Of a stretch of 64,000 nt of DNA, positions 38,440-42,835 are shown piece by piece. Made by a program: the position numbers and the translations under genes. Position 1 is the first letter of the stretch; every line of letters begins with the position of its first letter. Under the pieces are notes generated by a model, which worked only from the letters and a program-made list of their open reading frames with translations, had not been told where the DNA came from and searched no databases. The stretch is from positions 1,488,001-1,552,000 of the forward strand of contig NZ_SWDE01000001.1 in NCBI RefSeq assembly GCF_013337185.1, in the 5' to 3' direction. The stretch comes from Serratia proteamaculans. GTDB taxonomy: Bacteria > Pseudomonadota > Gammaproteobacteria > Enterobacterales > Enterobacteriaceae.

Positions 38440-39342
38440 TTATACCGGGTTGGAATGTGCCGACATCAAATCCTGCTGATGTAAAACCGCTACAAACGCC
38501 TGCGATGCCGCGCTGCGGTAAGCGCTTTTACGTTGCAGTAATACCGCCCGACGCGCCGGCAGAGCGGCGACAAGTGGTACCGATCGCAACTGCGGATCCG
38601 CCTGGGCAATCGCCGCCGGTAGAATGGTGGCAAGCTGACCACGGCGCACAATCTCGAGGATAGCACCAATCGCATTAGCCTCTACCGCCACCAGTGGGCA
38701 GATGCTCTGCTGGCGACAATAACCGTCGATGAACTGACGGGTAGCAAAATCTTCGCTCAGCAAAGCCAGGGGTTGCCGCTCAAGCTCCGCCGCCGTCAAA
38801 GGGTGTTGCCGTTGGGCCAAAAGATGGTCGGCGCCAACCACCATATTCAACGATTCACTAAACAGGTCTGTGGCCTCAATGTCTACCGACTGCGCCTGGC
38901 CGAAAGCAATGCCCAAATCCAACCGGTCCTCTGCCAGCAACGCCTCTATTCTGTCCTGCGTCATTTCTTGAATACTCAGCGATATGCCCGGATAACGCCG
39001 ATAAAAGGCATCGATAACCGGGCCAACCAGATAGGCGCTAAAGGTCGGCGTCATTGCCAACCTCAGATTGCCACGCTCCAGCGTCGCCACGTCATGGATC
39101 GCCCGCGCTCCTTCATCCAGATCCTGCAACGCCAGGCGGGCATAGCGCATCCAGGCCGCACCGGCATCGGTCAGACGCACGGTACGGCCACTGCGATCCA
39201 ACAACGGCGTACCCAGCGTTTCCTCCAGCTGTTTGATTTGCTGTGACAGCGTGGGCTGCGAGACGTGCAGCACTTCGGCAGCGCGGGTGAAATTGCCCTG
39301 CTCGGCAACGGCCAGAAAATAACGAATATGTCGCAACAGCAT
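38440..39342 (-). CDS. cynR: LysR-family regulator of the cyn operon
   Basis: A 300-residue LTTR starting MLLRHIRYFLAVAEQGNFTR with a classical HTH (AAEVLHVSQPTLSQQIKQLE). Sequence and position, divergent from cynTS with 114 bases between starts, support CynR, the cyanate-responsive activator. The start at 39342 is preferred over the upstream 39378 because CynR proteins begin with this helix. The operator should lie in 39343-39456. Confidence 0.9.
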   Translation of the reverse strand: MLLRHIRYFLAVAEQGNFTRAAEVLHVSQPTLSQQIKQLEETLGTPLLDRSGRTVRLTDAGAAWMRYARLALQDLDEGARAIHDVATLERGNLRLAMTPTFSAYLVGPVIDAFYRRYPGISLSIQEMTQDRIEALLAEDRLDLGIAFGQAQSVDIEATDLFSESLNMVVGADHLLAQRQHPLTAAELERQPLALLSEDFATRQFIDGYCRQQSICPLVAVEANAIGAILEIVRRGQLATILPAAIAQADPQLRSVPLVAALPARRAVLLQRKSAYRSAASQAFVAVLHQQDLMSAHSNPV

Positions 39343-39456
39343 AGTGCCCCTACTATTAGTAATTCCTATGGTAATCATTATAAATGGGTCTTAGACCCTA
39401 TAGCCAGAGCGGCGCAAGATACTTCCATCGCTTAACAGCACCCAGATGGAGACAGT

Positions 39457-40110
39457 ATGAAAGAGGTTATTGAAGGTTTCTTGAAGTTCCAGCGCGAGGC
39501 GTTTGTCGAACGCACGGCACTGTTCCAGCGGCTGGCGACCCAGCAGAGCCCGCGCACCCTGTTTATCTCCTGTTCCGACAGCCGCCTGGTGCCGGAACTG
39601 ATTACCCAGCGCGAACCGGGCGACCTGTTCGTGATCCGTAATGCCGGCAATATCGTGCCTTCGTTCGGCCCGGAACCCGGTGGGGTCTCCGCCTCGGTGG
39701 AATATGCCGTCGCCGCGCTCGGGGTGGAAGATATCGTGATCTGCGGGCATTCCGACTGTGGCGCAATGACCGCCATCGCCACCTGCCAGTGTCTGGAACA
39801 TATGCCGACCGTGGCTAACTGGCTGCGTTATGCCGACTCCGCCAAGGCAGTCAATCAGGCTTATCAGCATGCCTCCGAAAACGAGAAAGTCAGTTCGATG
39901 GTGCGTGAGAACGTCATCGCCCAGTTGAACAATATCAAAACCCACCCGTCGGTGGCTTTGGCGCTTGAACAAGGGCGGTTGAAGCTGCACGGTTGGGTAT
40001 ATGACATCGCCAGCGGCGGCATTGAAGCGCTGGATGGCGAAACCCGCCGTTTTATTCCGCTGGCCACGAATCCTGAAGTCACGGCAACTCCTGCCGTAGC
40101 ACGCTTTTAA
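39457..40110 (+). CDS. cynT: Beta-class carbonic anhydrase CynT
   Basis: Rehydrates CO2 released by cyanase to bicarbonate, the co-substrate of cyanate breakdown. The 217-residue enzyme has the zinc ligands Cys39 (FISCSDSRL), His98 and Cys101 ([10 protein letters not shown]). GGAG lies upstream of the ATG. It is 21 bases ahead of cynS and divergent from cynR. Confidence 0.96.
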
Positions 40111-40131
40111 TTTCATTATTAAGGAAACAAT

Positions 40132-40602
40132 ATGACTCAGTCACTGCACTACTCATCCCCGCGCGAAACCCTGACCGACACCATTATGATGGCCAAGATC
40201 CGCAAAAACCTGACCTTCGAAGCGATTAACCAGGGCACCGGCCTGAGCCTGGCGTTCGTCACCGCCGCCCTGCTGGGCCAGCATCCGCTGCCGGAACAGG
40301 CCGCCCGCGTGGTAGCTGAGAAGTTGGATCTGGATGAAGACGCCATTCGCCTGCTGCAAACCATTCCGCTGCGCGGCAGCATCCCCGGCGGCGTACCGAC
40401 CGACCCGACCATTTATCGCTTCTACGAAATGGTACAGATCTACGGCTCCACGCTGAAAGCCCTGGTGCATGAGCAGTTTGGCGACGGCATTATCAGCGCG
40501 ATTAACTTCAAACTGGATATCAAAAAAGTGCCGGATCCAGACGGTGGCGAGCGCGCGGTCATCACCCTCGACGGTAAATATCTGCCGACCAAGCCTTTCT
40601 AG
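40132..40602 (+). CDS. cynS: Cyanate hydratase (cyanase)
   Basis: Breaks down cyanate with bicarbonate to ammonia and CO2. The 156-residue decameric enzyme keeps the catalytic triad Arg96, Glu99 and Ser122 at the E. coli numbering (RFYEM and IISAINFK). AAGGAA precedes the ATG. The transport partner cynX is not next to it; the following gene is on the opposite strand. Confidence 0.97.
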
Positions 40603-40658
40603 TCTCCCCGCAGTTTGAGCCTCAGTACCAAGCTCTGATAGCCCGTGTAAAAGCGGGC

Positions 40659-41006
40659 TTAACCCGCGTGATAGCCGCGGCTGTCCTGCGGCACCTGCTC
40701 CCGCTGATCCAGCCCATAGTCGCGCACCACCTCCGCCACCCGCAGGCGGTACTGCGCCAACACGCCATGGCGGCCACGCTTCTGGGCGGCGCGGTGCTGC
40801 TCGATATTGCGCCACTGCTGTACTGCCGCTTCATCACGCCAAAAAGACAGTGACAGCAGCCGCTGCGGATCGGCCAGGCTTTGGAAGCGTTCAATCGAAA
40901 TAAACCCGTCAATCTCTGCCAACAGGGGTTTCAATTCGGCCGCCAACTCAAGATAGGTTTCGCGCTGGCCGTCGGCGGCCTGCAATTCAAAAATTACCGC
41001 AATCAT
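40659..41006 (-). CDS. ABM-domain (antibiotic biosynthesis monooxygenase) protein
   Basis: A 115-residue dimeric alpha-beta barrel protein. The core MIAVIFELQAADGQRETYLE, then FISIERFQSLADPQRLLSLS and FWRDEAAVQQWR, is the ABM/quinol monooxygenase signature. Some members oxidise phenolic or quinone substrates without cofactors, others act in haem handling. Its ATG overlaps the P450 stop (ATGA) and AGGAG lies 7 bases ahead, so it is translationally coupled to the P450 and likely acts on the same or a linked substrate. Confidence 0.85.
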   Translation of the reverse strand: MIAVIFELQAADGQRETYLELAAELKPLLAEIDGFISIERFQSLADPQRLLSLSFWRDEAAVQQWRNIEQHRAAQKRGRHGVLAQYRLRVAEVVRDYGLDQREQVPQDSRGYHAG

Positions 41007-42070
41007 AGTGAGCTCCTGTCAGAGATAAATTCGGGCACCCGTGCATTTTGCGAAACCCGCCAACGGGCGTTGTGCAGCAGTTGCAGATCAATACCCAATG
41101 CCGATAAATGCTGAATGCCGCACCGCGCAATAATTCTCGCCCAATCCGCCCCCGGGCAGCGATGTACACCCTCACCAAAAGCAAAACTTTCGGCCCCCGT
41201 ACACAACAACACCAAAACGCTCTGCCCAGCCAATATCGGGTATCCCGCCACCTGCGTATCTCGTAGCGCAAAACGGCGGGTATTCTGAATCGAGGGCGTC
41301 TCAGACAAGACTTTATCAATCAGTTGCGGCGCATTTCCCGCATGGTTGCGCATCAGCAGCAAAGCCTGGCCGATTAAGCCGGCAGTGCCCTCACACGCCT
41401 GAAACATCAAGCCAATGGCATTGGCCATTGCTACCTGACGATCAAGACCTTGCATCGCGCATAAATGCTGCAAACTCAGCCATAACGGGCCACTACAACC
41501 CTCAATACGTGCCGTTAAACGCCCCACGGCCAGGATCCCTTTTTCCACCTGCTGCTCACTACCACCTGGCGCAATGCAACGGGAAAAATCCAGAATATCA
41601 TCGATTAATTCTGACCACTCATCCGCAGGAACACCCAGCAGTGAAGCGATAACGCACACCGGCAGAGCATAGTTAAAACGGGTGATCTGATTTGCGTCAG
41701 GCGGTACCAAAGGCATCAATTCTTGCGCTACAGTCAATGCGGTGTTCTCGATCCGCGCCGCATCAAAAGCAGCTAACGTCTGCAGGACAGCCGCTTTGAG
41801 TTTGAGATGTTGTTCACCATCCTGCATACGTACCAGAGCACCGAAAATAGGCTGTGCAGGCGTATTCAACAACGCAGCAGGAATAGGTTCATGTGCTGGG
41901 CGCACCTCAAAATCGCTACTGTGCAAAATCTCACGGACTGCCGCCGGGGAGGCCGCGACCCAACTCTGCAAACTCGGCTGAAATGCCATCGGCATCATCT
42001 GCATATAGTCAGCGAGTGGATCTTCAGAAGTAACGGCAGCAAGAGCACGGGAATAGGGACAAACCGTCAT
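41003..42070 (-). CDS. Compact, atypical cytochrome P450
   Basis: A 355-residue soluble P450-like protein. The haem-thiolate loop FAFGEGVHRCPG is clear with Cys305 as ligand, and the I-helix has ACEGTAG with Thr229. Between them, however, only 76 residues separate Thr229 and Cys305, against 105 in P450cam (Thr252-Cys357). The K-helix ExxR motif is not recognisable (VLSETPSIQNTRRFA), and the NRDP/meander region is missing: VLVLLCTGAES runs straight into FAFGEG. GGAGA lies 6 bases before the ATG. It is coupled to the ABM gene and divergent from an ArsR-like regulator. Substrate unknown; haem binding and activity are uncertain. Confidence 0.8.
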   Translation of the reverse strand: MTVCPYSRALAAVTSEDPLADYMQMMPMAFQPSLQSWVAASPAAVREILHSSDFEVRPAHEPIPAALLNTPAQPIFGALVRMQDGEQHLKLKAAVLQTLAAFDAARIENTALTVAQELMPLVPPDANQITRFNYALPVCVIASLLGVPADEWSELIDDILDFSRCIAPGGSEQQVEKGILAVGRLTARIEGCSGPLWLSLQHLCAMQGLDRQVAMANAIGLMFQACEGTAGLIGQALLLMRNHAGNAPQLIDKVLSETPSIQNTRRFALRDTQVAGYPILAGQSVLVLLCTGAESFAFGEGVHRCPGADWARIIARCGIQHLSALGIDLQLLHNARWRVSQNARVPEFISDRSSL

Positions 42071-42128
42071 GATGTTCTCCGTTGAACTGGACCAGTGTGA
42101 AAATCCATCCTAACGCTGGCCCTGCAGT

Positions 42129-42154
42129 CATACTTCGTCTAATCTCGAAGTATG
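42129..42154. promoter_or_regulatory. Palindromic operator over the ArsR-like start codon
   Basis: CATACTTCG and CGAAGTATG form a perfect inverted repeat with an 8-base spacer. The right arm ends in the ATG of the ArsR-like gene at 42152-42154, and the site lies 59 bases upstream of the divergent P450 start. It is a strong candidate for self-binding by the regulator, blocking both its own translation start region and the P450 promoter. Confidence 0.7.
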
Positions 42155-42835
42155 GATAACATCGATATTGAAGATCTCCTTACCGCGCTGACCGCCGCCA
42201 TTGCCGACCGTACGCGGGCACGCATGCTGTGCCTGCTGATGGATGGCCGCGCCTATACCGCCACCGAATTGAGCGCGGCGGTGGACGTCGCCGCCTCGAC
42301 CGCCAGCGGGCATCTGGCGCGCCTGCAAGAACAGCGGTTGATCGTCTGCGTCAAACAAGGGCGCTATCGCTATTTCCGCCTGACCGGCCCGGCGGTGGCT
42401 ACCGCGCTGGAAACGCTGATGGCGCTGGCCGGTGTCGAAACGCCGGTGGTGAAAAGCACTACTCCGACTTCCCTGCAATTCGCCCGCACCTGTTACGACC
42501 ATATGGCCGGAGAAATCGCGGTAAAACTGCATGACCGCCTGCACCAGCTTGCCTGGCTGGAAGGCGAAGAAGACTACCTGTTGACTCAAGCGGGCCACAC
42601 CGCGTTAACCCGGTTAGGCATCGACTGCTCTGCGGCACGTTCACGGCGGCGTTTCGCCTGCGGCTGTCTGGACTGGAGCGAACGCAAGGCCCACCTTGGC
42701 GGCGCACTGGGTGCGGCTGTGCTCAATACTTTTATCGATCGCGGTTGGCTCAGGCGCCAGCTTGAAAGCCGTGAGCTACAACTCACCGCCGCCGGTAAAA
42801 AAGCGCTGACAGCACATTTTGGTCTCACGCTTTAA
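42152..42835 (+). CDS. ArsR-like winged-helix regulator
   Basis: A 227-residue protein with an N-terminal winged HTH (TRARMLCLLMDGRAYTATEL, then ASTASGHLARLQEQRLI) and a wing CVKQGRYRYFRL. A longer C-terminal domain with CGCLDW and WLRRQL segments follows, more than in simple ArsR sensors. It is divergent from the P450-ABM pair, with 81 bases between starts that contain a 26-base palindrome. The signal it senses is unknown. The two cysteines in CGC could be a sensing site; this is inference. Confidence 0.82.
   Translation: MDNIDIEDLLTALTAAIADRTRARMLCLLMDGRAYTATELSAAVDVAASTASGHLARLQEQRLIVCVKQGRYRYFRLTGPAVATALETLMALAGVETPVVKSTTPTSLQFARTCYDHMAGEIAVKLHDRLHQLAWLEGEEDYLLTQAGHTALTRLGIDCSAARSRRRFACGCLDWSERKAHLGGALGAAVLNTFIDRGWLRRQLESRELQLTAAGKKALTAHFGLTL

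Follow-up and report, generated by a model that had tools for sequence, protein, structure and literature searches.

A stop-free cytochrome P450 relative of Serratia proteamaculans with the haem cysteine and without ExxR or meander, encoded beside ABM and ArsR genes

The stretch of DNA analysed here, hereafter the window, comprises 64,000 nucleotides of Serratia proteamaculans (contig NZ_SWDE01000001.1). It contains a gene for a short cytochrome P450 homologue, overlapped at its 3' end by a gene for an ABM-domain protein and flanked on the other side by a divergent gene for a regulator of the ArsR family (Table 1). The original prediction had described the P450 gene as open, provided with a good ribosome site and overlapping the ABM gene by four bases, and all of this was found: the start codon occupies 42068-42070, a GGAG at 42077-42080 of the minus strand lies 6 bases from it (counted by eye), and the P450 stop shares 41003-41006 with the ABM start. 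The GC content of the P450 gene is 0.535, against 0.61-0.62 for the ABM and ArsR neighbours. LysR, carbonic anhydrase and cyanase genes, a cyn-like set, are present at 38440-40602, the cyanase gene being tail to tail with the ABM gene.

Table 1. Features of the P450-ABM-ArsR locus, in window coordinates
Feature	Position	Strand	Basis or remark
Short P450 homologue, 355 aa	41003..42070	(-)	ATG start, no internal stop
Haem-ligand Cys305	41156..41158	(-)	Invariant: 119/119 loci, 114/114 distinct proteins
Missing-meander site (NRDP...FxxxR), residues 292-296	41183..41197	(-)	Alignments, model comparison
Gln262-Asn-Thr-Arg-Arg-Phe267	41270..41287	(-)	Arg266 aligned with Arg of TARVA in BioI
K-helix slot of ExxR: Lys253-Val-Leu-Ser256 (KVLS)	41303..41314	(-)	Alignment
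I-helix Gly228-Thr229	41384..41389	(-)	228 is the oxygen-activating-Thr position
ABM-domain protein, 115 aa	40659..41006	(-)	PF03992, 70.3 bits (gathering cut-off 23.1)
Divergent ArsR-family regulator, 227 aa	42152..42835	(+)	PF01022, 35.3 bits (cut-off 22)
Perfect inverted repeat CATACTTCG-N8-CGAAGTATG	42129..42154	.	Second arm overlaps ArsR start codon

The ArsR protein also matches NF033788 (55.7 bits, cut-off 55) and carries a conserved C-terminal motif, RRRFACxCLDWSER. The inverted repeat has 9-bp arms and an 8-bp spacer, and it is likely the ArsR operator. In the 12 Serratia loci shown it is perfect in nine, among them loci with and loci lacking the P450, has one mismatch in two and is absent from L023; in the 13 loci shown from other genera it occurs with one mismatch in Chitinimonas (L024) and Variovorax (L030) and is absent from the remaining 11. 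A looser TTCG...CGAA upstream of ArsR was seen in 83 of 116 loci; it was counted without a shuffled control and is not relied on. A sigma-70 scan of 40560-42300 found no promoter. Two other functions were considered and rejected: a haem-degrading ABM of the HmuQ type, since the partner scores 18 against 130 bits on NF053649, and anti-phage defence, since PADLOC gave no match to the P450 or the ABM protein at E <= 0.1; the 13 PADLOC families that match the ArsR protein are read as reflecting its common helix-turn-helix.

The haem loop of the P450, FAFGEGVHRCPG, contains Cys305 and conforms to the FxxGxxxCxG pattern of canonical P450s. The cysteine and the interval of 76 residues between Thr229 and Cys305, both pointed out in the original prediction, are borne out by the sequence; in P450cam the same interval spans 105 residues, a length also found in 10 of the 15 full-meander relatives aligned. 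With Pfam p450 (PF00067) the protein reaches 14.7 bits, below the gathering cut-off of 22.8, so that annotation by this model misses it; indeed, the whole window genome holds no PF00067 match above cut-off, and family-based annotation would therefore label it P450-free.

The K-helix slot of ExxR is occupied by KVLS. The motif is thus absent, as had been claimed, while the SETPSIQNTRR-like sequence proposed as its replacement is not what fills the slot: the ETPSIQNTRR segment directly follows it. Between PIQ and the cysteine there are 45 residues, against 64 in full-meander relatives; the 19 missing residues agree with the earlier view that the NRDP and meander segment is gone. About 10 more are missing from the J/J-K part, which has 31 residues against a median of 41. 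A frameshift concealing the meander was rejected: each of the ten copies found in the genus is short, with 44-45 residues between PIQ and the cysteine, and they align in this stretch with at most one gap. Arg266, in the segment after the slot, corresponds to an arginine to which a role at a haem propionate is presumably due. In the I helix, Thr229 is present, as predicted; the position of the oxygen-activating threonine is, however, one residue earlier. This position was found by aligning solved P450s through a full-length relative, L044, whose GHETT pairs with AYEAT in the alignments with BioI and a vitamin D hydroxylase. Among the 114 distinct family proteins residue 228 is Ala in 106, Gly in six, the window protein included, and Ser in two.

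The structure prediction suggested as a check returned a P450 fold from which the J helix, the K' helix and the meander are missing. AlphaFold models of the window protein and of L044 have mean pLDDT values of 90.9 and 92.2, respectively. In the former the K helix spans residues 247-257 and a strand at 284-287 leads nearly straight into the Cys loop; in the latter J (253-261), K (265-276) and K' (308-311) are followed by a 27-residue coil preceding that loop, the helix letters being the analysts' own assignment. The best matches of the window model in VIA-align are StaP (2z3u; Z 34.8, rmsd 3.3, 348 aligned) and CalO2 (Z 34.5, rmsd 2.8, 344 aligned), which are tied, as are all rows no more than one Z unit apart; L044 gave StaP (Z 43.1), CYP109E1 (42.7) and CalO2 (42.4). 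On the predicted model, the window protein keeps the P450 fold.

Relatives were collected from 33 contig loci, from plasmids (5 retrieved of 49 records with a match), from a relatives search and from 78 of 392 genomes sampled from the family of a Rugamonas genome, 48 loci being retrieved from these 78 profile matches. Repeat loci and loci retrieved through ABM were excluded beforehand, and the resulting 119 loci gave 114 distinct proteins after five identical ones were dropped. Four of the 78 matches carry one internal stop; three were kept, each with a frame that stays open for 329-386 aa and includes the cysteine, and the fourth repeats L038. The 33 contig relatives were chosen by two patterns, one of them P[SP]IQNTRRF, so that the conservation of that motif is biased there; in the 78 relatives found by profile, Q262 and F267 vary and N-T-R-R is constant.

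The proposed search for homologues with the same deletion found the meander shortened in 67 of the 114 proteins. The other 47 have exactly 64 residues between PIQ and the cysteine and all carry ExxR; the short ones have 42-62, that is, a meander shorter by 2-22 residues. With K-helix residues read by counting back a fixed number of positions from NTRR without gaps, 13 short proteins have both Glu and Arg, five only Glu, 25 only Arg and 24 neither, and so one or both are lost in 54 of the 67; loss of ExxR was seen only together with a shortened meander. When the 49 columns with at least 93% conservation among the full-meander proteins were scanned, those most relaxed in the short proteins were a meander Arg (kept in 8/67), a meander Asp (17/67), the ExxR Glu (18/67) and the ExxR Arg (38/67), the next column being kept in 42/67. 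Conversely, Arg57, Pro58, Pro64, Phe76, Arg81, Met82, Gly85, Asn217, Gly220, Gln224, Ala230, Gly231, Asn263, Thr264, Arg265, Arg266, His303, Cys305, Gly307, Asn342 and Arg344 are present in all 67. One full-length relative, L017 on the Streptomyces plasmid NZ_CP108163.1, lies near genes for an iron-containing redox enzyme, an acyl-CoA dehydrogenase, saccharopine dehydrogenases and a SidA/IucD/PvdA monooxygenase; this neighbourhood looks like a biosynthetic cluster.

The ABM gene is the conserved gene downstream of the P450. In 96 of the 114 cases it follows on the same strand, and in 68 of the 96 the two genes overlap by four bases; the complete arrangement ArsR<>P450>ABM occurs in 83. Some retrieved stretches are short and the three counts are lower bounds. 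The coupling to ABM claimed in the original prediction is supported, and the synteny with ArsR that it proposed to look for is conserved. No ABM gene lies in the retrieved locus of six of the 67 short members. Five short P450s (L038, L041, L043, L045 and L103) have neither an ABM gene nor an ArsR of the window type adjoining them; four of these are in named Rugamonas or Duganella, and in genome G476 the ABM gene is on a separate contig, adjoining ArsR. ABM genes with no P450 next to them are found in other loci too: at L185 (1498-2921) it is preceded by a gene for a NIPSNAP protein (PF07978, 75.7 bits), with ArsR divergent, and the NIPSNAP protein may be an alternative partner taking the position of the P450. 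Among the open-access papers listed, no report of an ArsR-P450-ABM cassette was found, and none of the papers listed for ABM, 10 of 87, concerned ABM together with ArsR.

The order in which the motifs were lost was examined on a tree of the 114 proteins, from whose alignment the K-helix and meander columns had been left out; in this tree bootstrap values are not fully settled and several long branches are flagged. The meander state changes eight times, and at least five of these changes are forced by well-supported branches. Retention of ExxR is concentrated in one clade, L137-L167, with 17 short rows of 46-62 residues; 12 of them keep the motif, the remaining five having EVSQ, EVSL, EVSQ, DVSQ and DVSL in its place. 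Among the 50 short rows outside this clade only L115 keeps it. The presence of intact ExxR in all full-meander proteins and in some trimmed ones suggests that trimming came first and decay of ExxR later. A full-length row, L141, is nested among the short rows of L137-L167, which could reflect repeated independent trimming, a regained meander or a wrong placement of this row. When pairs were corrected for relatedness (n=5), ExxR changed in the same direction as the meander in 3.3 on average and in the opposite direction never (sign test, median p 0.25): the direction is clear, the events are too few for significance, and the link read from these sequences is suggestive. The naive Fisher value for meander against ExxR (p 2e-20) ignores kinship and is not relied on.

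Within the genus, the P450 was found in 10 of 30 genomes, the nine copies other than that of the window being 52-83% identical to it and none of the ten containing a stop; the nearest named relatives are from Serratia proteamaculans, S. quinivorans and S. grimesii (77-83% identity). The ABM gene is present in 25 of the 30, its best copy being 86-99% identical, and 15 of these 25 genomes (among L053-L076) are without the P450. In 14 of the 15 a whole or near-whole ArsR gene adjoins ABM, L053 having a fragment of ArsR only. Matches of 16-66 residues to the C-terminal part of the P450 lie close before the ABM start in eight of them; individually they are weak, four having E >= 0.006 and one 0.43. 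ABM and ArsR are thus kept where the P450 is gone, which points to ABM with ArsR as the core of the unit and to the P450 as an accessory that was lost. In wider samples, the P450 was found at E <= 1e-40 in one of 369 genomes of a gammaproteobacterial sample, that of the window itself, and at E <= 1e-60 in two of 251 genomes of Chloroflexota, both already among the known relatives.

This distribution bears on the possibility that the protein is a non-catalytic scaffold derived from a P450, which would support or activate ABM as EryCII and DesVIII do for glycosyltransferases, its haem being structural or absent. The frequent overlap with the ABM gene and the precedent of EryCII (PMC3391682, in excerpt) speak for it, as does the best NCBIfam match, TIGR04515, a model of P450-derived glycosyltransferase activators; the score is, however, 45 bits against a curated cut-off of 343, and that model describes proteins in which the haem cysteine is absent, while Cys305 is present here. 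Moreover, proteins of the EryCII type lost the cysteine and kept J, K, K' and L, according to the excerpt of PMC3391682, whereas here the cysteine is found in 114 of 114 proteins, and 15 genomes of the genus keep ABM though they have no P450. A scaffold is therefore considered unlikely.

Estimates of selection were obtained for 12 pairs. The dN/dS of the P450 is 0.126-0.269, with dS saturated (>1.5) in three pairs; in the close pairs with unsaturated dS it is likewise well under 1. ArsR gave 0.084-0.236 and ABM 0.014-0.140, apart from a single ABM pair with hardly any changes, at 0.559; in 11 of the 12 pairs the P450 has a higher value than ABM, and in 10 a higher value than ArsR. The claim that the gene is unlikely to be simple debris is upheld by these values and by the ten stop-free copies. 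A pseudogene or a deletion in this copy alone, named in advance as the outcome that would count against the claim, was rejected: full-length homologues do exist, but the shortening is common to all eleven copies seen in the Serratia clade and recurs outside it. A slower decay, in which a once-useful P450 under relaxed selection is stripped of parts and then deleted, with ArsR and ABM retained, could account for the missing P450 with its remnants, for the repeated changes of meander length, for a dN/dS above that of ABM and for the low GC content of the window gene. Against this stand the lack of stops in the genus copies, the dN/dS well under 1 also in close unsaturated pairs and the invariance of the core residues in all short members, and slow decay is judged quite improbable.

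An even chance is given to the reading that the protein is a haem-binding P450 relative maintained by selection, and that it serves an ABM unit under ArsR control as an accessory with which the unit can dispense. The original prediction had raised a different role for the haem, or an unusual oxidation by the pair, as possibilities; the residues conserved in the haem loop and the core favour haem-thiolate binding of the ordinary kind, the changes lying on the structural and redox side. The conserved polar residues presumably fall in pocket-lining regions of the P450, where alignment places them. Taken at the level of sequence, the invariant haem loop, the propionate-type arginine and the polar residues speak for a haem-thiolate protein that would act on one kind of substrate, perhaps a toxic small electrophile or a phenolic, which ABM might process further. 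ArsR, probably acting on the palindrome, would induce P450 and ABM jointly.

It may also be supposed that the protein is an ordinary ferredoxin-dependent monooxygenase for which the meander is simply dispensable. Its modelled P450 fold (Z about 35), the conserved cysteine and an acid (Glu or Asp) at position 227 in 67 of 67 short members agree with this, and the genome has 12 Fer2 matches, that is, two-iron ferredoxin genes, with which dependence on a partner is still possible. None of these matches lies within the window, however, the model lacks J helix, K' helix and meander, and Ala, Gly or Ser stands at the oxygen-activating position in 114 of 114 proteins, a feature that P450eryF shares; this supposition is considered rather unlikely.

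In the favoured reading, the loss also touches the redox side. The J/J' region and the insertion after the meander are described as sites of reductase interaction (PMC3224734, in excerpt). As the lost pieces also form this redox-partner face, docking of a ferredoxin is probably no longer needed. In the same excerpt, P450s that need no redox partner are described as mostly having a very long insertion in the meander rather than a short one, a trend that disfavours reading the shortening as partner-independence. For the haem-binding accessory, peroxide may replace the electrons of ferredoxin; alternatively, a haem-thiolate reaction other than monooxygenation may take place, or the P450 may draw both stability and assistance from the ABM protein, the start codon of which overlaps the P450 stop.

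As to the missing parts, Glu and Arg of ExxR and the meander Arg may form one interlocked module, so that trimming of the meander would release ExxR from selection; the released residues are taken to be the Glu-Arg-Arg network linking K helix and meander. In agreement, ExxR is said to stabilise the meander, and both are held to stabilise the P450 core (PMC3990721, in excerpt). A broader possibility, tentative and on balance doubtful, is that the lock between ExxR and meander and the redox face made of J helix and meander constitute a removable module, which would have been deleted repeatedly and independently with the haem and substrate residues spared; its deletion would follow once the oxidant or the electrons cease to come from a docked ferredoxin and are provided by peroxide or by way of the coupled ABM protein instead. 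If this were true, active P450s would be among the proteins discarded by current motif filters.

The family provides a natural series in which the meander is full, trimmed or absent and ExxR intact, half or lost on a constant haem core, and hence a natural test of the purpose of the module, be it folding, haem capture or electron transfer. In most P450s, mutation of the Cys, Glu or Arg gives inactive, misfolded protein (PMC3990721, in excerpt). Surveys that require both ExxR and CXG relegate proteins with one motif to pseudo-P450s or fragments (PMC6408508 and PMC7369989, both in excerpt), a practice that matters for the annotation of this family.

Among known systems, the window P450 has fold and haem loop in common with bacterial P450s such as BioI, CalO2, StaP and CYP107-like enzymes, L044 matching CalO2 at 2.1e-32 and BioI at 7e-32 by sequence; differently from them, it has no ExxR, J helix, K' helix or meander. 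Like P450eryF (CYP107A1), most family members have Ala at the position of the oxygen-activating Thr. The native residue of P450eryF is A245, the mutants A245T and A245S being named in titles among the structural matches, and that enzyme has a full meander. For the ABM partner, the closest solved relative is YqjZ (2go8, E 2.5e-8), of ABM fold and deposited as a hypothetical protein. A departure from ExxR is already known from CYP157, of which the members named in PMC3599690 (in excerpt) keep Glu and have Trp for Arg; KVLS does not fit that pattern, as compared by description, and the present family, unlike CYP157, loses Glu most often and has a shortened meander. Among the open-access papers listed, in which those on P450s dealt mostly with eukaryotic enzymes, no report of meander loss with the cysteine retained was found; relatives devoid of the cysteine are already known, EryCII being an example (PMC3391682, in excerpt). 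EryCII and DesVIII (TIGR04515) are similar to the window protein in that a P450-derived protein is encoded beside its partner. The excerpt of PMC3391682 describes for the EryCII type a lost Cys with I, J, K, K' and L kept; the window family, with its Cys kept, its J, K' and meander lost and ABM as partner, is the mirror image of that type.
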